Assembly (NCBI GenBank): GCA_001787535.1
Contig: MFXP01000005.1
Location: forward strand, 1 to 36,019
Direction: 5' to 3'
Length of the DNA stretch: 36,019 bases
Origin: Candidatus Peribacteria bacterium RIFCSPHIGHO2_01_FULL_51_35
GTDB lineage: Bacteria; Patescibacteriota; Gracilibacteria; Peribacterales; Peribacteraceae
The translations under genes and the position numbers were made by a program. The stretch's first letter is position 1; every line of letters starts with the position of its first letter. The notes below the pieces were generated by a model. The model did no database searches, was not told the origin of the DNA, and saw only the letters and a list, made by a program, of their open reading frames with translations. This document shows, in pieces, positions 763-36,019 of the stretch.

Positions 763-1998
763 CTATCGCAACGCGACTGTTTTCACCGGAAACGCATGGA
801 TCAAATAACGCTGTGAGATCGAATCCGGCGGCCAGCATGTGTAGAGGATCAGCTCTTCGCCGGGACCGCTGTAGGCGGACGTATCCGAGGCCGGCACGGC
901 GTTTTCGTACGAGACTTCGTAAACGTAGAGGTTGCCGTTGTAGGTCACGTAAACCTGGTCACCTTTGTTCAGCTGGTTCACTTTGCGGAAGATTTTCGTG
1001 TACTGGGAAACGTCCCACGGGTAACCGCTGGAGTGTCCGTAGATGAGGATTTTGCCGCCGGCACCGGGATAACTGAACAGATGGCCGACGCCTGTTTTGA
1101 GCGGAGCCAGGATGCCATTGGAACTGAACGGATCCGAAGGATGCGTAATGAGAAGATCTTTGATGCCGAGTTTCGGAATGGTGACGGAGAAGTATCTGTC
1201 CGATGCAAATTGTGAAAGTTCACCCGCATTCGATGTGACGATGGGACGCGGTGCGGGAGCGGCGATGGCTGTCGTCGGACGATAGATGGGTTGCGTGCGG
1301 ACAGGCGCGGGGTTGTTGATGACAACTTGCGGAATGGGAGCAGCGGGCTCGGGGCGGTTGAAGGCCGTGAGATTTTCCGCCTTCACCACGTGCATGCGAT
1401 AGACGATGTCGAAGAATTGTCCGCGCGTGATGTTTCGGGACAAGCGGAGCACTTCGCGCTGCGAGATGAGATTCTTTGCGATGGCCGTGCTGATGTACGG
1501 CGTGAACCACTGGTCGGCACGGTTCTCCATGGCATCCGTGGACTGGAACGGCGCGGACGGATTCGTTTCCCCGTACGCACGCATGAGCAGCGCGATGGCT
1601 TCTTCGACTTTGAGCGGAGCACCCGGACGGAACGTGCGATCGCTGTAGCCCGTGACGATGCTTTCCTGGAAACCCGTTTCCACGTACGCCGCGTACCATG
1701 CTTTCTGATTCGTATCCAGGAAGAGCGGCATGGGTGGCAAATGTTTCTGGAACCATTCCACTTTGGTTTTCGTAGCATCGTTCGAACCCAACACAACTTT
1801 TAAAGCCTCGGCGCGATTGATGAGATTGAGCGGACGACCGGTGCGATCCGCATATCCTTCCACTATGCCTTTGTCCGACAAATACGAAAACGCTTCGCCG
1901 TAGCGCGTAGCTTGCGTGTCAATGAACGTCATTGCAAAAGTCTCCGTGGGGACAAGGAGAGGCAGAGCGACCAGAATTGCAAGGAGGCGCTTGTGCAT
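763..1998 (-). CDS. Secreted SLH-domain sortase (class D/E-like)
   Basis: A 411-aa exported protein with a signal peptide at residues 1-22. Three S-layer-homology repeats follow at about 25-72, 92-145 and 160-206; the first two carry the typical GYADRTGRP and GYSDRTFRPG turns. A Pro-rich linker spans about 212-258 and a sortase domain 263-411. Sortase signatures are IPKLGI, GVGH, the catalytic His in IYGHSS (H322), the nucleophile in LYTCWPP (C388) and an Arg nine residues later (R397). Sortases cleave a sorting motif and transfer the protein to an envelope amine; SLH domains bind cell-wall polymers. The fusion therefore suggests a sortase tethered to the wall rather than by a transmembrane helix. 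No sorting-signal substrate was seen in the window. A consensus promoter ends 9 nt before the ATG. Confidence 0.9.
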   Translation of the reverse strand: MHKRLLAILVALPLLVPTETFAMTFIDTQATRYGEAFSYLSDKGIVEGYADRTGRPLNLINRAEALKVVLGSNDATKTKVEWFQKHLPPMPLFLDTNQKAWYAAYVETGFQESIVTGYSDRTFRPGAPLKVEEAIALLMRAYGETNPSAPFQSTDAMENRADQWFTPYISTAIAKNLISQREVLRLSRNITRGQFFDIVYRMHVVKAENLTAFNRPEPAAPIPQVVINNPAPVRTQPIYRPTTAIAAPAPRPIVTSNAGELSQFASDRYFSVTIPKLGIKDLLITHPSDPFSSNGILAPLKTGVGHLFSYPGAGGKILIYGHSSGYPWDVSQYTKIFRKVNQLNKGDQVYVTYNGNLYVYEVSYENAVPASDTSAYSGPGEELILYTCWPPDSISQRYLIHAFPVKTVALR

Positions 1999-16530: not shown

Positions 16531-16974
16531 TCATTCCCACGGTATTTCCAAAGGCTCTAGATCCCAATGATTTGCCGCAGACGACCATGGATATTCTTCC
16601 GGCATCTCTGAAAGATTTTTCCGAACAGGATTCAGGAGAATGTATTTCAAGGCTTCCGTGGAATTGCGAATCTCGCGAATGTGAAAACGCGGTTGCCATA
16701 GTTTTGATATGCCCAACTGAAAAGCCAAACCCATTTTGTACGCACGCATGATTTTGGAAATAGATCCTCCTGCGGGAACAGTGAAAAGAAAATGGCAATG
16801 ATCCGGCATAATTACAAACCCATGAATGAAGAACGGATAGAGTTGTTGCACCCGGTACAAATGCTCTATGGCTTCAGTGGCATACGCAGCGTTCTCAAAA
16901 AATTTCTTTCCGTAAAAAGTATTTGTAGTCACCAACATCAGCACTTCGTTTTGCACGGGATGACGTTGTGTCAT
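16531..16974 (-). CDS. REP-associated tyrosine transposase (RAYT)
   Basis: 147 aa, near the shorter end for the family. The HUH motif is MPDHCHFLF, and the nucleophile Tyr lies in ALKYILLNPVRKNL, followed by the conserved YPWSSA segment. RAYTs cut and join single-stranded REP hairpins. Six REP units with the same tail lie within 16479-17210 and two of them bracket the gene, so this is probably the enzyme that propagates this REP family. A TAGTAT box ends 9 nt before the ATG. It sits between rpsG and fusA, an unusual place that splits the str operon. Intact, with no frameshift. Confidence 0.88.
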   Translation of the reverse strand: MTQRHPVQNEVLMLVTTNTFYGKKFFENAAYATEAIEHLYRVQQLYPFFIHGFVIMPDHCHFLFTVPAGGSISKIMRAYKMGLAFQLGISKLWQPRFHIREIRNSTEALKYILLNPVRKNLSEMPEEYPWSSAANHWDLEPLEIPWE

Positions 16975-26960: not shown

Positions 26961-28103
26961 TTAAGCAGCAGAAACCAGCCTCTTGGAAGATTGTTGCCCT
27001 TCTTTTTCGGCTTTCAGCAGATCTATGAAAGCATCAAAAAGATAGTTCGCATCCTCGGGTCCCGGCGTTGCTTCCGGATGAAATTGGACGGAGAAAAATC
27101 TGCCGGATTCGTGGCGGATTCCTTCCACGGTTCCGTCGTTTGCATTCTTGAACCACACGTGCCAACCCTTGGGTAATTTTTCCGATACTGCGAACCCGTG
27201 GTTCTGGCTGGTGATGATGCACTTGTGCAGAGCTTTTCCTTTGTCATCGCACTCTATGCATGGCTGATTTCCTCCGCGATGTCCGTATTTTAGTTTGAAT
27301 GTGTCACCACCAATGGCCAAAGCAAGTAATTGATTCCCCAGACAAATGCCGAACGTCGGAATATTGCGCTCCAGCGCTCGTTTGATACTGGCGATTGTGG
27401 GAACGCATGTCTTGGGATCGCCCGGACCATTGCTGATGAAGAGTCCATCAAACTCTCCGTCGTAAGAATCGATGTCAAAATCCCACGGTACGCGGACGAC
27501 TTTCACTCCCCTCTTCAAAAAACTGCGGAGAATATTCCGTTTCATACCACAGTCGTACGCAATGATCGTCACAGGATCGGGTAAGGGATTCGGCTCATAT
27601 ACCTGCACTTCTTTGCAGCTCACTTCCGCAACGAGATTCAACTTGTTCGGATCCTCAATTTCCTTGGAGGCAGTGGCATCATTCTGGACAATTTTCCCCA
27701 ACATCACACCATGCTCGCGCAATTTCTTGGTGAGTGCACGGGTATCGACTCCGGTAATTCCCGGAATATTGTGGTGCTCCAACCAGCGGTGCAACGAACT
27801 CACTGCACCAAAATGGCTGTGATGTTCACTGGCTTGCGCAACGACGATGCCGCGCACGTGGATCTCTTCACTCTCAAAATTCTTGCTGAAACCAAACTCA
27901 TTTTTCTCTTCCGTCGGCACACCGTAATTCCCTATCAACGGATAGGTAAATGTGAGTATTTGTCCACGATAACTGGGATCCGTAAGACTCTCCGGATAGC
28001 CGACCATTCCTGTGTTAAAAACAACTTCTCCGTCGCTATCCACTTTGGCTCCGAAGGATTCTCCCTCGAAAATTGTGCCATCGGCGAGGATAAGAGATGT
28101 CAT
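26961..28103 (-). CDS. carA: Carbamoyl-phosphate synthase small subunit
   Basis: 380 aa. The N-terminal CPSase_sm_chain domain (SLILADGTIFEGESFG...VGYPESLTDPSYRGQIL) is followed by a class I glutamine amidotransferase domain with the nucleophile in GICLGNQLLALA and His/Glu in FHPEATPGPED. It hydrolyses glutamine and channels ammonia to CarB for carbamoyl phosphate, the precursor of pyrimidines and arginine. carB is not adjacent within the window. No Shine-Dalgarno and no clear promoter found in front of the ATG. Confidence 0.96.
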   Translation of the reverse strand: MTSLILADGTIFEGESFGAKVDSDGEVVFNTGMVGYPESLTDPSYRGQILTFTYPLIGNYGVPTEEKNEFGFSKNFESEEIHVRGIVVAQASEHHSHFGAVSSLHRWLEHHNIPGITGVDTRALTKKLREHGVMLGKIVQNDATASKEIEDPNKLNLVAEVSCKEVQVYEPNPLPDPVTIIAYDCGMKRNILRSFLKRGVKVVRVPWDFDIDSYDGEFDGLFISNGPGDPKTCVPTIASIKRALERNIPTFGICLGNQLLALAIGGDTFKLKYGHRGGNQPCIECDDKGKALHKCIITSQNHGFAVSEKLPKGWHVWFKNANDGTVEGIRHESGRFFSVQFHPEATPGPEDANYLFDAFIDLLKAEKEGQQSSKRLVSAA

Positions 28104-28389: not shown

Positions 28390-29607
28390 ATGAACAGTTC
28401 GATCAAGTTTGTGGTTGCCATGATGGCGATCGCCGTGTTGGGATTCCAATCCCTTCACGCAGACGACACGGAAGTTGTCACCCGCGTCCGCGAGGCCGCG
28501 GTCGATGCTCGCAAGAGCATCGAAACGGCGAAGTCCAAGTTGGGCAACGCGGCTTTCGCCGCGGGAGAAGCCGATGAGGGTTTCCGAGCCGCCGGTGTTC
28601 GCTTGGAAGTTGCGCGCAATGCATACATGCGCGACTCCAGCGAAGCCAAAACCGCCGGGGATATGGCGGTGGAAGCTGCTCGCCAACGCGATGCCGCTCG
28701 TTCGGAGGTCGCCCGGTTGGAAACAGCCGGCGGCACTCTGACAGTGCGCGAAGCGTATGTGGCAGGATTGCTCCGAGCATTGGAGCTGGCATCTGCGGCT
28801 GTTGAAGCTGCTGCCGATTCCGAAAAGGCCACAGCCGAAGAAAAACTTGCTGAAGCGAAGGTTGCTTTCGAAAAGGGCGGCAATGCCCTCAAAGAAATGC
28901 AGCAAGCGCTCAAGCGGGTCGACAAGGCCGAAAAAACCCTGCTCAACGCCGATGCCTCTGCTCAAAAACTTCTTCAATCCGCTCGCGCTGCGACCGACAA
29001 GATGCAGGGTGCGCAAGAAGAAGCAAATCGCTTAGACGGCGTTCGTAAGAATGCCGCGAAAGCGTTGAAGCAAGCGCAAGATGCGCTCGTCTCCACCGTC
29101 GCAAAGGCTAACGGCGCACTGTACGACGAGTACATGTACCGTGAACTCGTTTCGGTGAAGGATGATGTGTCGAAGGCAATAGCTGCAGCAGGGACGGCAG
29201 CGCAAGCGGCCGGCAACGCAGCCACGGCCGCCGACGAGGCCAAGAAGGAGGCTGAAAAGAAGGCGGACAAGCCGACTCCCGCATCTCTCCTTAAAGAGGC
29301 GAAGGAAAAAGCTGCCCTGGTGGCTCGTATCGAAAAGGTCGAAAAGAAGGTGCAATGGCTCAAAGAGGCCGTCGACGGGCTGAAAAATGTAGCCCTAACC
29401 GACCGCCAGAAAGAGCTCACCCAGGAATTGCTCACAAACTTCGACAAACTTAGTCCGGAGCAGAAGGAACGCTTCTTCCTCTGGGCCAAGAAAGTTGAAG
29501 CGGAACCCGCAAAAGCGGACGCCAAATGGATACTTCACCCCACGTGGGCGAAGAACTCCTGTGGCGAGTGGGTAGTGATCGGGCAAACGTACGTTGCCTC
29601 CAAGTAA
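28390..29607 (+). CDS. Secreted Ala-rich coiled-coil protein, 405 aa
   Basis: Signal peptide MNSSIKFVVAMMAIAVLGFQ up to LHA (cleavage about residue 24). The mature part is almost wholly helical and Ala/Glu/Lys-rich, with long heptad-like stretches from about 28 to 345, then a compact C-terminus with Trp and a single Cys (HPTWAKNSCGEWVVIGQTY). No transmembrane helix follows the signal. AGGAG 8 nt before the ATG fixes the start. Such proteins act as periplasmic or surface fibres or spacers (inference). The promoter type matches that of the 169-aa coiled-coil protein, and two strong hairpins follow the gene. It faces the unknown membrane-protein block at 29722-36019. Confidence 0.8.
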   Translation: MNSSIKFVVAMMAIAVLGFQSLHADDTEVVTRVREAAVDARKSIETAKSKLGNAAFAAGEADEGFRAAGVRLEVARNAYMRDSSEAKTAGDMAVEAARQRDAARSEVARLETAGGTLTVREAYVAGLLRALELASAAVEAAADSEKATAEEKLAEAKVAFEKGGNALKEMQQALKRVDKAEKTLLNADASAQKLLQSARAATDKMQGAQEEANRLDGVRKNAAKALKQAQDALVSTVAKANGALYDEYMYRELVSVKDDVSKAIAAAGTAAQAAGNAATAADEAKKEAEKKADKPTPASLLKEAKEKAALVARIEKVEKKVQWLKEAVDGLKNVALTDRQKELTQELLTNFDKLSPEQKERFFLWAKKVEAEPAKADAKWILHPTWAKNSCGEWVVIGQTYVASK

Positions 29608-29655: not shown

Positions 29656-29687
29656 CTATGTACCTTGAAATACATCTCACAATACTT

Positions 29688-29719
29688 GCCGGCGTTCCTA
29701 CACGCCGGCGAGTTTTTTT
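29688..29719 (+). terminator. Rho-independent terminator
   Basis: GCCGGCG-(8 nt)-CGCCGGC, then GAG and a run of seven T on the plus strand. It ends 2 nt before the last codon of the convergent minus-strand gene. Confidence 0.85.
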
Positions 29720-29721
29720 GT

Positions 29722-31170
29722 TTATTTTAAATTCTCTAACTCATCCAATTTTCCGCCAAAATTTCCCGGCGAGGTATCTGTCGACGGCGTTGGACTTGGG
29801 TTTGCCGGAGCAGGAGGAGCATCCAATTCATTGAGCATTTTATCGAAATCTTCTTTCTTAGATGGTTCCGGAGTAGGAGGTTCGGTCTTCTTATCCAGTT
29901 GCGGTGCTTTCAGTTCATCCAAAGCATCATCTGCGTTGATTGGTTTTTTTGGTTCAGGCACCGTCACCTCAGGAATTTTTGCAGGTGCCGGAGGTTCCAC
30001 AGCAGGAGCAGCTTTTTCTTCCGGAATCGGAGCGACGGGAGGCGGCAGCGGTTCCGACTTCGCTTCGGGTTTCTCCACAGGCGGAACGGGAACTGTCTCC
30101 GGTTCCTCTTCGATTGGAGCAACGAATTCAGGCGAGGACAAGGGGCGTGTAGCTCGTGGAATCCTGGTCGTGTCCGGCGTGACCGGCACTTTGGATGCCG
30201 GCGTTTCCGCTCGAGGAGGCAAAGAGGAAGATGGCACAGAAACCGAGGGCTTCACATCCGTTTTCATTGCAGAGGGCGCTCCGGCTTCCGCAGCAGAACG
30301 CGTTGGAGGAACGGATACCCACGCTGACGGGACCGCTTTCTTGGCATCACTCGCGTCCCTGGCACGATTACGGATATCTTTCACACCGTCGCGTATGCGC
30401 GCAACGGGTTCGTTACTCGGTGTAGCCACTTCGTATGATCGCTTGTTTCTCTCCTCCCGCTGCTTTGCGGCGACTTCATCCATCCTCGATTCATAACTCT
30501 TTCGCGCAGGCAAGTCGTACTTCGCACGAGCGGCATTCGTCAGGTTTTGCTGCCTGCTGAAATTTGCAGCGCCCAATCTGTGATACTCCGCAATGATGTC
30601 GCGCTTCGGCGGAATCCATCTGCTTGCTCTGTCCACTTTGCCGTAGGACATGCTTCTGGGAATCACTCTTTCCGCTTCGTTTCTCCGCTTCATCATCCTG
30701 TCATGCCACTCTTGCGGTGTACCGAAGCGTCGCGGCAGTCCGCTGTACCCCCACCGATATCCCCAGGGGGAATACATCCTGTAGGGAGCGTACGCGAACG
30801 CATTGCGATAGTGGAGTCCCGAACGTCGCACAAAGGAACGCGTTCGCCACACGGCGTAGCGTGGTGCATACACGTACGAAAATCTGCGTGCGTACAGCGG
30901 TCGACGCAAATACGGATAGTTGCGAAGCGCACGCGGATAGGCGGTCTTGCCATCGGGAGAGAGCACCGGATACGAAGGACTCCCCGCAACTCTCGCCGCG
31001 GTTTTTTTTGCGTCCTCCATTGTCCGAACTCGTTCCGGAGTTTTTGGATCCTTCTCGGGAGTCGGCGTCAGCCCTTCCGATGGAGTACCGGTCACCTCAT
31101 GGATCAGCCTCTTTTCTCCGGAAGAAAATTCAGATGAGCGGAAGCCGAAGAGGTATCGCACAAACTTCAT
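29722..31170 (-). CDS. Low-complexity protein with Tyr/Arg-rich core and LDEL repeats
   Basis: 482 aa from the ATG at 31170, which overlaps the upstream stop as ATGA; a longer frame to 31269 lacks support. Residues 78-150 are dominated by Tyr, Arg and Trp (RRPLYARRFSYVYAPRYAVW, then YRMYSPWGYRWGY). The C-terminal half is Pro/Glu-rich and probably disordered, ending in three related short motifs: DDALDELKAP, DKMLNELDAP and GKLDELENL. No signal peptide or membrane helix. Tyr/Arg-rich segments often bind RNA or condense; the repeated acidic LDEL motifs look like docking peptides (both inference). Translationally coupled to the 119-aa protein. Confidence 0.7.
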   Translation of the reverse strand: MKFVRYLFGFRSSEFSSGEKRLIHEVTGTPSEGLTPTPEKDPKTPERVRTMEDAKKTAARVAGSPSYPVLSPDGKTAYPRALRNYPYLRRPLYARRFSYVYAPRYAVWRTRSFVRRSGLHYRNAFAYAPYRMYSPWGYRWGYSGLPRRFGTPQEWHDRMMKRRNEAERVIPRSMSYGKVDRASRWIPPKRDIIAEYHRLGAANFSRQQNLTNAARAKYDLPARKSYESRMDEVAAKQREERNKRSYEVATPSNEPVARIRDGVKDIRNRARDASDAKKAVPSAWVSVPPTRSAAEAGAPSAMKTDVKPSVSVPSSSLPPRAETPASKVPVTPDTTRIPRATRPLSSPEFVAPIEEEPETVPVPPVEKPEAKSEPLPPPVAPIPEEKAAPAVEPPAPAKIPEVTVPEPKKPINADDALDELKAPQLDKKTEPPTPEPSKKEDFDKMLNELDAPPAPANPSPTPSTDTSPGNFGGKLDELENLK

Positions 31171-31526
31171 GATTGATGGGAGTTGATGGAATCTTCCAGC
31201 TGCGTCAGTTGCGATTGCTCTTCCACGGAAATTTCCGCGTTCGCCAATGCCGCCATCTGCTTTTTCCAAAGTGTGACATCGGCCTTCATTTCTTTCTCCA
31301 AGTCCGCCGCGACACGATCAAAAATGAGAAAGGCGACTTGATAGTGTTCCTGCCGCATCTTTTTCTGCTCCTCGGTCTCTCCTTTATAACGCTCCTCCAA
31401 GAGCGGGATATTTTTTGTCAGCAAATCCGGCTCTATACTTGCCATGATTTCGTCATAGAGCCACTCTGCGGAGAGCGGTGGATGCGGATTTTTGGCTGAC
31501 TGTTGCGTTTTTGTTTGTTTTGCCAT
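31167..31526 (-). CDS. Hypothetical helical protein, 119 aa
   Basis: A soluble, mostly helical protein with a Gln/Lys-rich start, SAEWLYDEIMASIEPDLL, and long charged helices (ERYKGETEEQKKMRQEHYQVAF). It resembles a small adaptor or chaperone in build only. A near-consensus promoter ends 7 nt before the ATG. It overlaps the 482-aa gene by 4 nt, making a two-gene transcription unit inside the larger block. No family recognised. Confidence 0.65.
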   Translation of the reverse strand: MAKQTKTQQSAKNPHPPLSAEWLYDEIMASIEPDLLTKNIPLLEERYKGETEEQKKMRQEHYQVAFLIFDRVAADLEKEMKADVTLWKKQMAALANAEISVEEQSQLTQLEDSINSHQS

Positions 31527-31533
31527 TTGTATA

Positions 31534-31562
31534 ATTATACACTAAAATATTATATTTGGCAA
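31534..31562 (-). promoter_or_regulatory. Leaderless promoter of the 119-aa gene
   Basis: TTGCCA (31562-31557), 17 nt, TATAAT (31539-31534), then 7 nt to the ATG. Close to consensus and with no room for a ribosome-binding site. Confidence 0.75.
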
Positions 31563-31599
31563 TATTCCAAACATTGATATAGCTACGGGCTAAGACACC

Positions 31600-31965
31600 T
31601 TAGTGGGCTCCCGCCGGCGCATGGGCATCGTGCCCATGGTCTGCTGCGGCGTGGCCGTGGCCTCCGCCTTTAAAGGACAGCAAGTCGAATGCTTTATCGC
31701 GCGTATTAACGACAACATCAGCCGCTTGTCCAAAAAGGTTCCCCACTTTATACAATGGCCACGATGTCGCGAGGATGGCAGCTCGCCCGGTCGTACTAAG
31801 AATATTTCGTGTCGCAGTTAAACCAATGACACCCAAATCTATCGGCAGACCAAGAACATTGTATATTTTCCGCAGAGTCTCCTGCGTTAAAGTCATGACC
31901 TTGGGCCCCACTGTCGGGGGCATTCCTTCGGGGGCCTCTGTGAAGAATGGGACAATATTTTTCAT
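31600..31965 (-). CDS. Membrane-associated protein with His-rich C-terminus, 121 aa
   Basis: The middle (LPIDLGVIGLTATRNILSTTGRAAILATSWPLYKVGNLFG) is moderately hydrophobic, perhaps one or two membrane or amphipathic helices. The last 22 residues (GGGHGHAAADHGHDAHAPAG plus AH) contain six His and should bind metal such as zinc, nickel or copper (inference). It starts 9 nt after the 308-aa gene, whose N-terminus carries a similar HAP/HG-rich tail. No Shine-Dalgarno. No family recognised. Confidence 0.65.
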   Translation of the reverse strand: MKNIVPFFTEAPEGMPPTVGPKVMTLTQETLRKIYNVLGLPIDLGVIGLTATRNILSTTGRAAILATSWPLYKVGNLFGQAADVVVNTRDKAFDLLSFKGGGHGHAAADHGHDAHAPAGAH

Positions 31966-31974
31966 ATATTTGGA

Positions 31975-32901
31975 TTACGGAACAACGGGAACGACGGGTG
32001 GGACGGGGATGGCGGCAATTTTCGACATGATCAATTGCCAAGCGGATGCCACGGCATTCCCAACGTTCGTCGCAGCGATAATCGGACTGAAGTTTGCACT
32101 CGCAAGCGCACCCAAACATGCCAAGCAACCCACGCCCCATGCAACGGGGTGTTTCCCCATGCTCTCGGCGACGATTTTGGTGAGCTGAAATGGAAAAGCG
32201 ACCAATCGAATACCCGCCGCCTTCAGACCGAACAATGCAGCGGAAAGAAGATTTACTTCCTCTCCTGAATGCGGATCCTTCAATTTGTAATGATGGTTAA
32301 CGGCGTATCGTAAATCTCTATAGCCTTCCAAGATTGTTTTATCCAGCACTTTGTATCCGACATGCCCGACAGTGGTGAGTGCATTCATCCCAACAGTGCC
32401 AGCAAGACGAAGGGGATACGAAAGAATACTTGCTCCGCTTTTCACTCCTTCAACACCGGCAGAAACAGTTTTACGGACGCCTTTTTCCGCCCAGGAGAAT
32501 GGGGGAACTTTCCTAGCTTTTTTCCATACAGCCAGTGATCCTGCGACAACAGTTGTAAAGAGAGGGAATGGTACAAATGCGCCAACCATTGCGGCCTTTC
32601 CAAACGTTTGCACACTCGGCAACCGAGGAAGAGGCTGCAATTTCTCTCGAAGCGTTCTTCCTCCGCTTCTTGGGTCAAGACGTGCATCGTGATGCTCTGC
32701 ATGTTCACCGGGGTGTCCGCCATGTTCATGCGGATCACTCTTGATGGCATCTCCCAAAGTCTTATGTACTTTTTCTTTCGCTTTGCCCGCTGCCTTCGTG
32801 ATTGTGTCTGCCGCTTTTGCTGCAGCTTCTGCCTGTCCTTTGGCTGCCTCATTGCCATGATCAGGTGTACCGTGTGCCGCTTCTGGTGCGTGTGGCGACA
32901 T
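31975..32901 (-). CDS. Polytopic membrane protein with His-rich N-terminus, 308 aa
   Basis: Residues 1-75 are hydrophilic and His/Ala/Glu-rich (HAPEAAHGTPDHGNE, DPHEHGGHPGEHAEHHD), a likely metal-binding or disordered tail. Hydrophobic stretches follow at about 103-126, 158-183, 217-243 and 252-287, and the C-terminus is a Pro/Val tail (IPVPPVVPVVP). It lies 5 nt after the 949-aa gene and 9 nt before the 121-aa gene, an obvious operon. The hydrophobic segments resemble those of its neighbours in composition, suggesting a membrane complex. No transporter signature recognised. Confidence 0.7.
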   Translation of the reverse strand: MSPHAPEAAHGTPDHGNEAAKGQAEAAAKAADTITKAAGKAKEKVHKTLGDAIKSDPHEHGGHPGEHAEHHDARLDPRSGGRTLREKLQPLPRLPSVQTFGKAAMVGAFVPFPLFTTVVAGSLAVWKKARKVPPFSWAEKGVRKTVSAGVEGVKSGASILSYPLRLAGTVGMNALTTVGHVGYKVLDKTILEGYRDLRYAVNHHYKLKDPHSGEEVNLLSAALFGLKAAGIRLVAFPFQLTKIVAESMGKHPVAWGVGCLACLGALASANFSPIIAATNVGNAVASAWQLIMSKIAAIPVPPVVPVVP

Positions 32902-32906
32902 ATATG

Positions 32907-35756
32907 TTAATGAGATTTAAAGAATTTATTGGTAAACCATTGTTTCAATGCCCATCCTCCCCCAAATACAGCACCCGCACCCGCCCAATACCACGGACCC
33001 ATAATGTGAACCACCGGCGGAATAAAAGTGGGAACTAAAGTCGCAACGCCCGCGCCCACGGCAGCGGGAATTCCTACACCCAATGCAAATTTCCCGATAG
33101 CCAAGGCCTTATCCTTTGCAAAATGAGTTGTGGCTTCCTTTGCCTTTTCGCCTTCTTTGTATGCCCAAGTGCCTTTTCGCACTTTGTCATATGCTTCGAA
33201 TTTCTTCTGCATGCTATTCGCAAATGCTTTTTTGATTTCCATGTTATTGCGAACGGCATTCAAGCCCATAGGTTGCTTATCTCCGGGATCCCGTTTTACA
33301 TCACGCATTACTATCTTGGCATTCTGCAATACCTGTTTTGCGTTTTCGTATTCAGTTTTCAATGTTACTACTTTTAAAGACAGTTCAGATTTAGCATCAA
33401 TTTTTTTTCTAAGCTCTTTTATCTCATCTTGCAATCTTAAAATCGCATTCTGCAAGAACTGCTTCTGTGTGGCATCCACTGCAACAGCGATTTGATCTTC
33501 CCGCTGAGTCAACTCAACATCCTTCTTTGAAAGATCGCCTGCTAAGGTTTTCATTTCATTTTTGGATTCCTCATATTCCGATTTTTTTTCGCTGCATAAC
33601 TCTTGAGCATCTTCAAAAGCAAACTGTGCATCGTCAATTTTTTTCTGATCAACTTTTTTGTAAGGTGGAAGTGTCGCCAAGTAATTCTCAACATGTGGGG
33701 CTGCATCCGCGGTAAATTCTTTTGCATTGCCGTACTTATGTTTCAGCATCGACAAAGAGAAACCATCAATGACTTTGAGGAAATGCTTCCCTTCATCTCC
33801 CAATTCCTGTTCATTCAATAGTTTTTCCTCATCGAAAATGGTATTTATTCCGCCGGCATGGATTGGCCTGTCCCCTCTTCCGCAAATTTCATTGGTTTTG
33901 GAGAATTCTAAATGTTGGAACGAACCAAGGTATGCGCGCCGCAATTTTCGTCCCGCAATGTCAGCTCCAGCCAAGATTGCCGGAACGGGATTGAATGTGA
34001 AAGCGGACGCAACAGCTCCCGCAGCTCCAACGGTGTAATCCACTTCACGAGCTTTACTCTTGTAGTGCGTTTCTTCCGTCAAACGACCTAGTACCACAGC
34101 CATTTGAATCAATTGTTCTCTGCGCATTTTTCGGGTGGCTTCATCCGCAACGGATGCAATATCGTATGTCTTGAGCAAATTCAATTGGTCTGGTGTAAGA
34201 CCCGGAATTGCTTCTCCCGCTTGAGCTCTTCGACAAACCAGTTGAAACTGTGTTGCAAAAAGTCTGTAGTATTCGCCGTACAAACCAAGATGAGGGACTT
34301 GAGACGGAGTGATACCGGTTGCTTTGTACAGACTTCGCAGAAGTTTTACTTCATCCGTTTCTCCGTCATCGGAGTTCAGCAATTCCCTGCTGGTTTTATC
34401 ACCATATTCTTTGAAAAGTTTTTGAATTTCTCTCAGTGCATCCCCATTCGTTTCATTGCCGATACGCAATTCATGTGCAGCCGCATTATATCCTCTTACT
34501 ATCCAAGAACTGTTCAGCCATGAGCCGCGTATATTCCTCATGAGTTCCCACCCCACTCCCATACCTGCCGGATAACCGAGGAGCGGAGCACCCACAAATG
34601 GCAAAGCCAATGGAGTGCCCCCGGTGGCAAACGCACTTTGCACTGCCGGTGCATAATTCAAAACTGCAGCAGTTGGAGCAGCTCCTGCTGCCAAGCCACC
34701 GACAGTTTTTACTCCTGCGTGAATCGTAGGAAACTTTTCAGCTTTCTCTCTGATCCATTGAAAGAACTTCGCCGGCACCCACATAAAAGAAGCAGGTTTA
34801 TTTTCCAGAACTCTGTGATTCGGTTGAGGATTCGGAGCTCCCGGAGCACCACCCGGTCCGCCGGGAGGAGCAGGCGGCAGAGCCGGAGGAAGCTGTACCG
34901 GAACACCCGGCGTTTGCTGGGGTGCATTCTGCTGCTGAGGAGCATGTTGTGGGTGAAGGACATTTGGATTCTGTTGTGGAACATTGGGATTAGGCTGAGG
35001 AGCACCGGGAGCACCCGCTGCAGCACGCAAGGGCACGGGTGTTAAAGTTATATTTTTACCCTGATATGTTCCGGGCACAGTGGACGGAGTTGGAGTTGAG
35101 CGCTTTGTTTCAATAACTGCTTCAGCGCTTCCAAGTTCCAGAGATTCCTCATCAAGCTCAATCATGTCATCATCATCCGGTAATTGGAGAGACTCAACAT
35201 CTGCTTGTTTAGAAGTCTGATCATTACCAAGTTTAAGATCATCATCGTCATCTGATAGAGTGAGGCCACCAAGCTGAAGATCATCATCATCGTCCAACGG
35301 AGTGAGATGCAAACCATCATCATCGGGAGTGACAAGATAAGAATTATCTGCCAACTCCGGTTCTTGTCTTGAATTTTGATCATCTTCAAGCTCAAGTCCT
35401 TCATCAGGCAATGACCCAAGTTGCCAATCATCATCCTCTGCAAGTCGAATGACATTGCCTGTCTTGTCTTGTCCAGAAGGAGGCTCATCATCCCTCCAAC
35501 GTGTTCTGGAAGGTGGTGTACCACTTGGCGAGAGGTCTTCGTCTGAAAGTATCTCTTTACTGTCGGCACCTAAGAGACCGCTGGAATCCTGTTTCACTTC
35601 CGCCTGAATTTGCTCAATGTCTTCGCCACTTAAAAGTTCAGCGGAATCATCCGGCAATTCCAGACTTTCCTCGGCAGAACCGAGGATAAAACTTTTATCC
35701 TCATGACCCAAATCGTCCCTTTTCTTGTCGCCGGGTGATGGTGGATGATTGACCAT
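32907..35756 (-). CDS. Large multi-segment membrane protein with acidic LxL-DDDD repeats
   Basis: 949 aa. Residues 1-215 are acidic and carry repeated short motifs in which Leu-x-Leu is followed by four or five Asp (LHLTPLDDDDD, LTLSDDDDD, LQLPDDDD) and two EESLEL units (29-34, 203-208). Residues 235-315 are Pro/Gln/Ala-rich. A hydrophobic region follows (about 350-405), then a mostly helical domain with another hydrophobic patch (VDYTVGAAGAVASAFTFNPV). A coiled coil lies at about 700-820 and a C-terminal hydrophobic segment in the last 60 residues. No catalytic motif found. It has its own promoter with TAAAAT 6 nt before the ATG. It probably scaffolds an envelope complex with the two following membrane proteins. 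Confidence 0.75.
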   Translation of the reverse strand: MVNHPPSPGDKKRDDLGHEDKSFILGSAEESLELPDDSAELLSGEDIEQIQAEVKQDSSGLLGADSKEILSDEDLSPSGTPPSRTRWRDDEPPSGQDKTGNVIRLAEDDDWQLGSLPDEGLELEDDQNSRQEPELADNSYLVTPDDDGLHLTPLDDDDDLQLGGLTLSDDDDDLKLGNDQTSKQADVESLQLPDDDDMIELDEESLELGSAEAVIETKRSTPTPSTVPGTYQGKNITLTPVPLRAAAGAPGAPQPNPNVPQQNPNVLHPQHAPQQQNAPQQTPGVPVQLPPALPPAPPGGPGGAPGAPNPQPNHRVLENKPASFMWVPAKFFQWIREKAEKFPTIHAGVKTVGGLAAGAAPTAAVLNYAPAVQSAFATGGTPLALPFVGAPLLGYPAGMGVGWELMRNIRGSWLNSSWIVRGYNAAAHELRIGNETNGDALREIQKLFKEYGDKTSRELLNSDDGETDEVKLLRSLYKATGITPSQVPHLGLYGEYYRLFATQFQLVCRRAQAGEAIPGLTPDQLNLLKTYDIASVADEATRKMRREQLIQMAVVLGRLTEETHYKSKAREVDYTVGAAGAVASAFTFNPVPAILAGADIAGRKLRRAYLGSFQHLEFSKTNEICGRGDRPIHAGGINTIFDEEKLLNEQELGDEGKHFLKVIDGFSLSMLKHKYGNAKEFTADAAPHVENYLATLPPYKKVDQKKIDDAQFAFEDAQELCSEKKSEYEESKNEMKTLAGDLSKKDVELTQREDQIAVAVDATQKQFLQNAILRLQDEIKELRKKIDAKSELSLKVVTLKTEYENAKQVLQNAKIVMRDVKRDPGDKQPMGLNAVRNNMEIKKAFANSMQKKFEAYDKVRKGTWAYKEGEKAKEATTHFAKDKALAIGKFALGVGIPAAVGAGVATLVPTFIPPVVHIMGPWYWAGAGAVFGGGWALKQWFTNKFFKSH

Positions 35757-35762
35757 AATATT

Positions 35763-35791
35763 ATTTTAAAATTAAATTAAATTTTTGCAAA
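35763..35791 (-). promoter_or_regulatory. Leaderless promoter of the 949-aa gene
   Basis: TTTGCA (35791-35786), 17 nt of almost pure A/T, TAAAAT (35768-35763), then 6 nt to the ATG. The -35 abuts the stop codon of the upstream gene. Confidence 0.5.
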
Positions 35792-36019
35792 TTACTTATA
35801 CGTATCGATTTTGAGGTCGGAAAGAAGTTTATTGAGCCTGTCGCCGGGGCCGCTGTTCGCTTTCAAGATGCCTTCGTTCACGCGTTTGTACGTGCTGTCC
35901 ATACGCACTCTCGAACCATCGTACTTGTTGGAATACACCCAGGACATGGTCGGTGCCGCACCATATGAGTACTTTGTATCTTGCGGTGGAGTGAGCCCCG
36001 CCGAATTCAAGTAGGCTTC
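35792..36019 (-). CDS. C-terminal part of an unknown protein (runs off the window)
   Basis: 75 codons and a stop; the frame is open to the window edge, so the start lies outside. The visible part is hydrophilic with Tyr/Ser-rich segments (TKYSYGAAPTMSWVYSNKYD) and a helical end (GDRLNKLLSDLKIDTYK). No signal or domain recognised. It directly precedes the 949-aa gene with a 35-nt AT-rich gap and probably belongs to the same gene block. Confidence 0.55.
   Translation of the reverse strand, partial: EAYLNSAGLTPPQDTKYSYGAAPTMSWVYSNKYDGSRVRMDSTYKRVNEGILKANSGPGDRLNKLLSDLKIDTYK

Follow-up and report, generated by a model that had tools for sequence, protein, structure and literature searches.

Small helical proteins of a family that we call P119 are encoded directly upstream of large proteins that carry a short conserved N-terminal tag in the Peribacteraceae, and we give an even chance to our best overall explanation of this pairing, that P119 would be a dedicated partner (a chaperone or adaptor) of the tag. 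CPR bacteria, ultra-small and probably dependent on hosts, have many large uncharacterised proteins whose sorting or export is an open question, and a tag that is legible in the sequence, together with a co-encoded partner, puts otherwise unrelated proteins from an entire family in a single client class. The stretch of DNA analysed here (the window, 36,019 nt) is an entire contig, C5, of a 1.2 Mb genome in 18 contigs with 99% completeness. The nearest matches of its carA protein, at 69-75% identity, come from Candidatus Peribacter, Peribacteria, Peregrinibacteria and Peribacteraceae, which places the genome in that group. The family sample consisted of 74 Peribacteraceae genomes, the window's own counted in, and 279 other genomes of the class were used for comparison. 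Gene starts were mechanically assigned throughout.

The P119 gene and its promoter-like site

Five complete open reading frames and an open C-terminal fragment lie on the minus strand at the end of the window. Their coordinates, sizes and gaps, and a 4-nt overlap between two of them, agreed with a sequence-only reading of the window, which had proposed that the six genes encode one scaffolded envelope complex. No acceptable Pfam domain was detected in any of the six, and that reading too had recognised none. Its overall interpretation is partly supported; among the parts that gave way is the unity of the set. Because a near-consensus promoter-like site (TTGCCA-17-TATAAT, 31534..31562, minus strand) sits in the 73-nt gap upstream of the gene for the 119-aa protein (31167..31526, minus strand), 7 nt from its start codon, a single transcription unit of six genes is not supported. 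The 119-aa gene itself overlaps the gene of a 482-aa protein (29722..31170, minus strand) by 4 nt.

The P119 family, described by a profile of 113 positions in which M28, L35, E50 and R58 are invariant, was present in 67 of the 74 Peribacteraceae genomes, while the 279 genomes from elsewhere in the class had no member of it. One to five copies were found per genome, at unrelated sites that include the rpoC-fusA interval, the mfd-aspS interval and the vicinity of carA (flanking genes were named by eye from sequence). The 119/482 pair also occurs in genomes that lack the 949- and 308-aa proteins of the neighbouring gene set, which again speaks against one six-gene system. The predicted structure of P119 consists of two short helices packed on one 67-residue helix (pLDDT 90.5). 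Neither its fold nor its sequence matched a solved structure in the PDB, and the profile searches that the earlier reading had called for likewise matched no known family.

When the 60 nt upstream of each gene were scored, 23 of 43 P119 genes had a promoter score of at least 9 of 12; only 24 of 332 controls and 6% of the shuffled sequences scored that high. The promoter-like sites of P119 genes often carry TGnTATAAT. An ATGA-type overlap of 4 nt joins P119 to the downstream gene in 12 of 37 pairs, the window's pair among them. Unit B, composed of the 119- and 482-aa genes, is best read from these features as a putative self-contained partner-client cassette with its own promoter.

The N-terminal tag and the tagged clients

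The 482-aa protein begins with MKFVRYLFGFRSSEFSSGEKRLIHEV and is Tyr/Arg-rich, then rich in Pro and acidic residues, with no known domain. Comparison of the genes directly downstream of P119 copies revealed a shared motif, [RK]-E-x-R-L-[LIVMC]-[FYH], with E at residue 10-20. Around this core the sequence reads S-[RK]-E-[RHK]-R-L-[LIV]-[FYH], followed by a Pro/Ala-rich stretch. The core of the 482-aa protein, E-K-R-L-I at residues 19-23, is encoded at 31102..31116 on the minus strand, as computed from the start at 31170. The window's genome has two P119 copies, each with a tagged protein encoded after it; the tag reads GEKRLIHEV in the window and GEHRLLHFI on contig C15.

We searched the first 45 residues of proteins with the expression E-x-R-[LMEF]-[LICMVAFY]. 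In the exploratory set, 15 of 22 proteins downstream of P119 carried the tag, compared with 41 of 616 other genes of those loci, most of which also encode module proteins, and with 1.5% of internal windows. With the expression fixed beforehand, 19 of 21 downstream proteins from 20 newly fetched loci matched, compared with 4 of 371 background genes (Fisher 1.8e-26), although the clients of related genomes may be homologues where they occupy the same site on the chromosome, so that the tested pairs are not all independent. The background was a 400-kb sample of the complete genome G030, with its known module loci left out. One new locus (L205) repeats an exploratory locus (L110), so the test is mostly held-out; without it the count is 18 of 20.

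Taken over all unique pairs, 37 of 47 downstream proteins were tagged, always with E at residue 10-20, and in later windows of the same tagged proteins at most 1 of 37 matched per window. About 10 of the 47 P119 genes have no recognised tagged neighbour; near-miss tags (REARSVRF, REERCVF) account for part of these, and in some cases the client gene has been lost. All six Arg codons and all six Leu codons are used in the tag. The constraint thus acts on the protein, a finding that speaks against conservation of a DNA or RNA element.

The 37 tagged bodies are mostly unrelated to one another; they fall into 28 clusters and are 171-2,063 aa long, some of them cut by contig or stretch ends. Cysteine accounts for 0.2% of their residues. 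In the search for Sec or Tat N-terminal signals, 36 of the 37 clients had no hydrophobic segment at the threshold used.

We infer a short chain of events from this arrangement. P119 would be made from its own promoter, the client would follow by translational coupling, and P119 would recognise and physically bind the short N-terminal tag. As a dedicated chaperone or adaptor, it would keep or deliver large, cysteine-poor, mostly TM-free clients, and these would share a destination, either export or a membrane-associated assembly. Secretion of the clients is a guess. We suggest tentatively, at distinctly less than even chance, that the pairs represent an undescribed sorting system of the Peribacteraceae, in which a tag read by the co-encoded P119 would bring many unrelated large proteins to one machine or structure. 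With the same reserve, the large proteins so delivered may include membrane-associated modules.

Less probable, but still to be reckoned with, is a role of the tag as a docking (cargo-loading) peptide that would place clients on an intracellular or membrane-bound scaffold, with P119 as this scaffold or as a linker, and no export. Clients without signal peptides, cysteines or (in 36 of 37) hydrophobic segments would suit such a role, as would the hydrophobic segments of neighbouring proteins in unit A (see below), some of which are tagged themselves. However, there is one P119 gene per client and not one common scaffold, and pairs occur in genomes where the 2077/949 set of unit A was not found. 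A toxin-antitoxin, immunity or defence cassette, in which P119 would restrain a harmful client via its N-terminus and the bodies would be polymorphic-toxin-like, appears unlikely to us. The small upstream gene, the 4-nt overlap, the several copies, the variable large bodies and the site-swapped neighbouring modules all recall such cassettes, but a Pfam scan of ten clients found no toxin domain, and the PADLOC library of anti-phage defence models gave no match beyond weak coiled-coil similarity for the window's proteins. The cassette is moreover found in almost every genome of the family, where it sits at conserved housekeeping sites.

Degrons look like short conserved N-terminal motifs on unrelated proteins, and the tag resembles one in this. 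P119 would then be an adaptor for regulated proteolysis and the tag an N-terminal degron, a reading to which we give very little credence: one adaptor gene per client, overlapping the client gene, would be unusual for proteolytic adaptors, and the tag is internal, at residue 10-20.

Comparison with known partner-client systems

In the type VIIb Lap-LXG system, export of the client depends on small helical proteins that bind it and are encoded directly upstream (PMC10765036). The P119-client pairs resemble Lap1/Lap2-LXG in having a large polymorphic protein that lacks a signal peptide and has a small helical partner encoded just before it, in their short conserved targeting motifs, and in being a family confined to certain lineages. 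They differ in the single partner gene of the cassette and in the tag, which is a short motif at residue 10-20 where LXG proteins have a helical domain. Neither ten clients nor the window's proteins matched LXG, WXG100 or DUF3130/DUF3958 in Pfam scans. As regards a WXG100-like helical hairpin in the partner, the P119 model shows one 67-residue helix and two short helices and has no fold match in the PDB. Because no LXG or WXG feature is present, membership in the type VIIb Lap-LXG group is not claimed.

Planctomycete proteins carry an extracellular N-terminal motif (Planc_extracel, PF07595) of the LExRxLLA type, which is not known to have an upstream partner gene. Like the tag, this motif places a short N-terminal E-x-R with hydrophobic residues on otherwise unrelated large proteins, but its spacing is E-x-R-x-L-L-A and that of the tag is E-x-R-L-L-F. 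PF07595 matched none of the ten clients at E 0.01, nor the 482-aa protein. In the relative G028, a gene starting YENLETRELLAA, a true-looking planctomycete-type extracellular motif, adjoins the locus (L011, G028:C1:206341 onwards).

In type III secretion, the chaperone gene adjoins the client gene and the client has an N-terminal targeting region, whose signals are not known to have a fixed motif. The P119 pairs are similar to these chaperone-effector pairs in the position of the partner gene beside the client and in the N-terminal targeting region; they differ in the fixed motif of the tag and in that P119 has no sequence or fold match to solved structures. Another likeness is to DUF5663 (PF18908), a small helical protein encoded between large uncharacterised genes in other families of the class. 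At E 0.01 the window's genome yielded no DUF5663 match, a scan of 43 P119 members listed 25 families without it, and P119 showed no significant similarity to the DUF5663-like small proteins of other families when the profiles were compared. Literature searches on DUF5663, the planctomycete motif and secretion in these bacteria found nothing on this tag. Neither the P119 family nor the tag had a match in anything searched, but the way in which they act may still turn out to be a well-known sort of chaperone-client pairing.

Unit A between rny and carA

Upstream of unit B on the minus strand lie the remaining four genes of the window's set. They encode a 121-aa amphipathic-helix protein with a His-containing C-tail that is not conserved (31600..31965), a 308-aa protein with hydrophobic segments (31975..32901), a 949-aa protein with acidic repeats, a Pro-rich linker, hydrophobic segments and a coiled coil (32907..35756), and a fragment at the contig end (35792..36019). 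The gap between the 949- and 308-aa genes is 5 nt and that between the 308- and 121-aa genes 9 nt. The fragment, a truncated protein in the sequence-only reading, could be completed: it is the last 75 aa of a helical protein of about 2,077 aa, the first 2,026 aa of which are encoded on contig C17 (L003 3-6080, minus strand), and an identical overlap of 24 residues joins the two contigs. The 2,077-aa gene is adjoined upstream by the gene of a 1,255-aa protein with five lamin-tail matches, a PKD and a staphylococcal-nuclease domain (L003 6099-9866, minus strand), and then by rny on the opposite strand. Most of the relatives examined keep the lamin-tail/nuclease protein in this place, between rny and the 2077-homologue. 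We refer to the five genes, lamin-tail/nuclease, 2077, 949, 308 and 121, as unit A.

Homologues of the 2,077-aa protein were found in 12 of the 74 family genomes, the window's own counted. Wherever the surroundings could be read, the order was rny, lamin-tail/nuclease, 2077-, 949-, 308- and 121-homologue, sometimes P119 with a tagged gene, and carA; the 949-homologue was absent in three of these relatives. Conserved in order but quick to diverge, unit A occupies the space between rny and carA in roughly a dozen genomes. Co-occurrence in the same order, which had been put forward as a mark of one system, held for 2077/949/308/121 but not for the 119/482 pair, which is scattered independently. 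The 2077-core profile also matches large proteins in other families of the class, and profile-profile comparison agrees. When 333 genomes across the phylum were searched with the distant 2077 relatives, the window's genome was the only one to match.

Apart from the domains of the lamin-tail/nuclease protein, nothing credible was matched by the unit A proteins in Pfam, NCBIfam, PADLOC, PHROGs or the PDB. The predicted structure of the 2077 core is almost all helical, at low confidence (pLDDT 62), and its best fold match in the PDB had an E of 0.17. The LxL-acidic repeats claimed for the 949-aa protein are mildly above chance: five LxL..DD repeats occur in residues 1-230 where 1.19 are expected from composition-preserving shuffles, and 37 of 5,000 shuffles reach five. 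Matches of this protein to GGDEF, SMC-like and LmuB/JetC models were set aside as weak coiled-coil similarity. An open frame of 14,634 aa that surrounds the 949-homologue of G028 was rejected as an artefact, since 40 kb there are masked as N (contig G028:C1, from 208001 on). The N-termini of the 949-homologues of G025 (L015 1-2382, minus strand) and G075 (L035 7516-10395, plus strand) have a weak excisionase/HTH_17-like segment.

Hydrophobic segments were found in the 949 and 308 homologues, as the suggestion of membrane segments had implied. No signal peptide was detected at the start of any of the window's set of proteins, the 2077-, 949-, 308- and 121-aa proteins of unit A included, and an envelope location is unproven. 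Unit A evolves fast, and its proteins are mostly helical, with membrane-seeking segments. No tag is present on the 2077-, 949-, 308- and 121-aa proteins of the window itself. In relatives, tags were found on 2077-homologues (G081, G083, G084, G067 and G022) and 308-homologues (G028, G081 and G084), and these link units A and B. Sequence comparison thus suggests that unit A may be another set of clients, or a platform that receives clients.

In other genomes of the family, the same interval holds an unrelated three-gene module encoding proteins of about 900-1,000, 130 and 800-1,160 aa, and the large protein of this module also carries the tag. Since G075 carries both versions before carA between flanks that are 90.6% identical (L035 on C20, 2077-type; L071 on C14, 908/126/823-type), one and the same site can be occupied by either module. 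The two-module state of G075 may reflect either a natural allele swap or a strain mixture. A hydrophobic hairpin occurs both in the 2077 family and in the alternative module's large protein; profile comparison of the two gave no significant homology.

Metal binding, suggested by the His-rich tails, did not hold as a conserved property. A His-rich N-tail (at least 6 His) is present in only 4 of 12 308-homologues (G000, G085/G086 and G026), two of which are near-identical, and other homologues have K/E-rich tails instead. C-terminal His was seen in 5 of 10 949-homologues and 5 of 12 121-homologues, compared with 10 of 277 background genes. The tails recur in some lineages and tend to co-occur within the same genomes (again G000, G085/G086 and G026), but they are not a defining property because most homologues lack them. 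Together with the close packing of the genes and the order of 2077/949/308/121 kept in about a dozen genomes, this co-occurrence would favour the proposal of a single scaffolded envelope complex, possibly metal-binding, encoded by all six genes. We consider that proposal improbable in view of the promoter-like site before the 119-aa gene, the independent distribution of the 119/482 pair and the homologues without His tails.

Beyond the client gene, carA (26961..28103, minus strand) is the conserved right-hand anchor of the locus and lies outside the system. Between the two is the gene of a 405-aa coiled-coil protein with a likely signal peptide (28390-29607, plus strand), followed by a strong terminator-like hairpin (29684-29713). 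An IS200-like (Y1) transposase lies between fusA and an rpsG-like gene in the window (16531-16974, minus strand); in other Peribacteraceae, the rpoC-fusA interval is a site of P119-client pairs. A 411-aa protein with S-layer homology and sortase domains (763-1998, minus strand) suggests sortase-linked surface proteins in the window's lineage. In three loci (L095, L096 and L097, from G055, G120 and G044), open reading frames occur in short pieces, as though TGA were a sense codon, a pattern that fits the Gly-TGA code of some Gracilibacteria.
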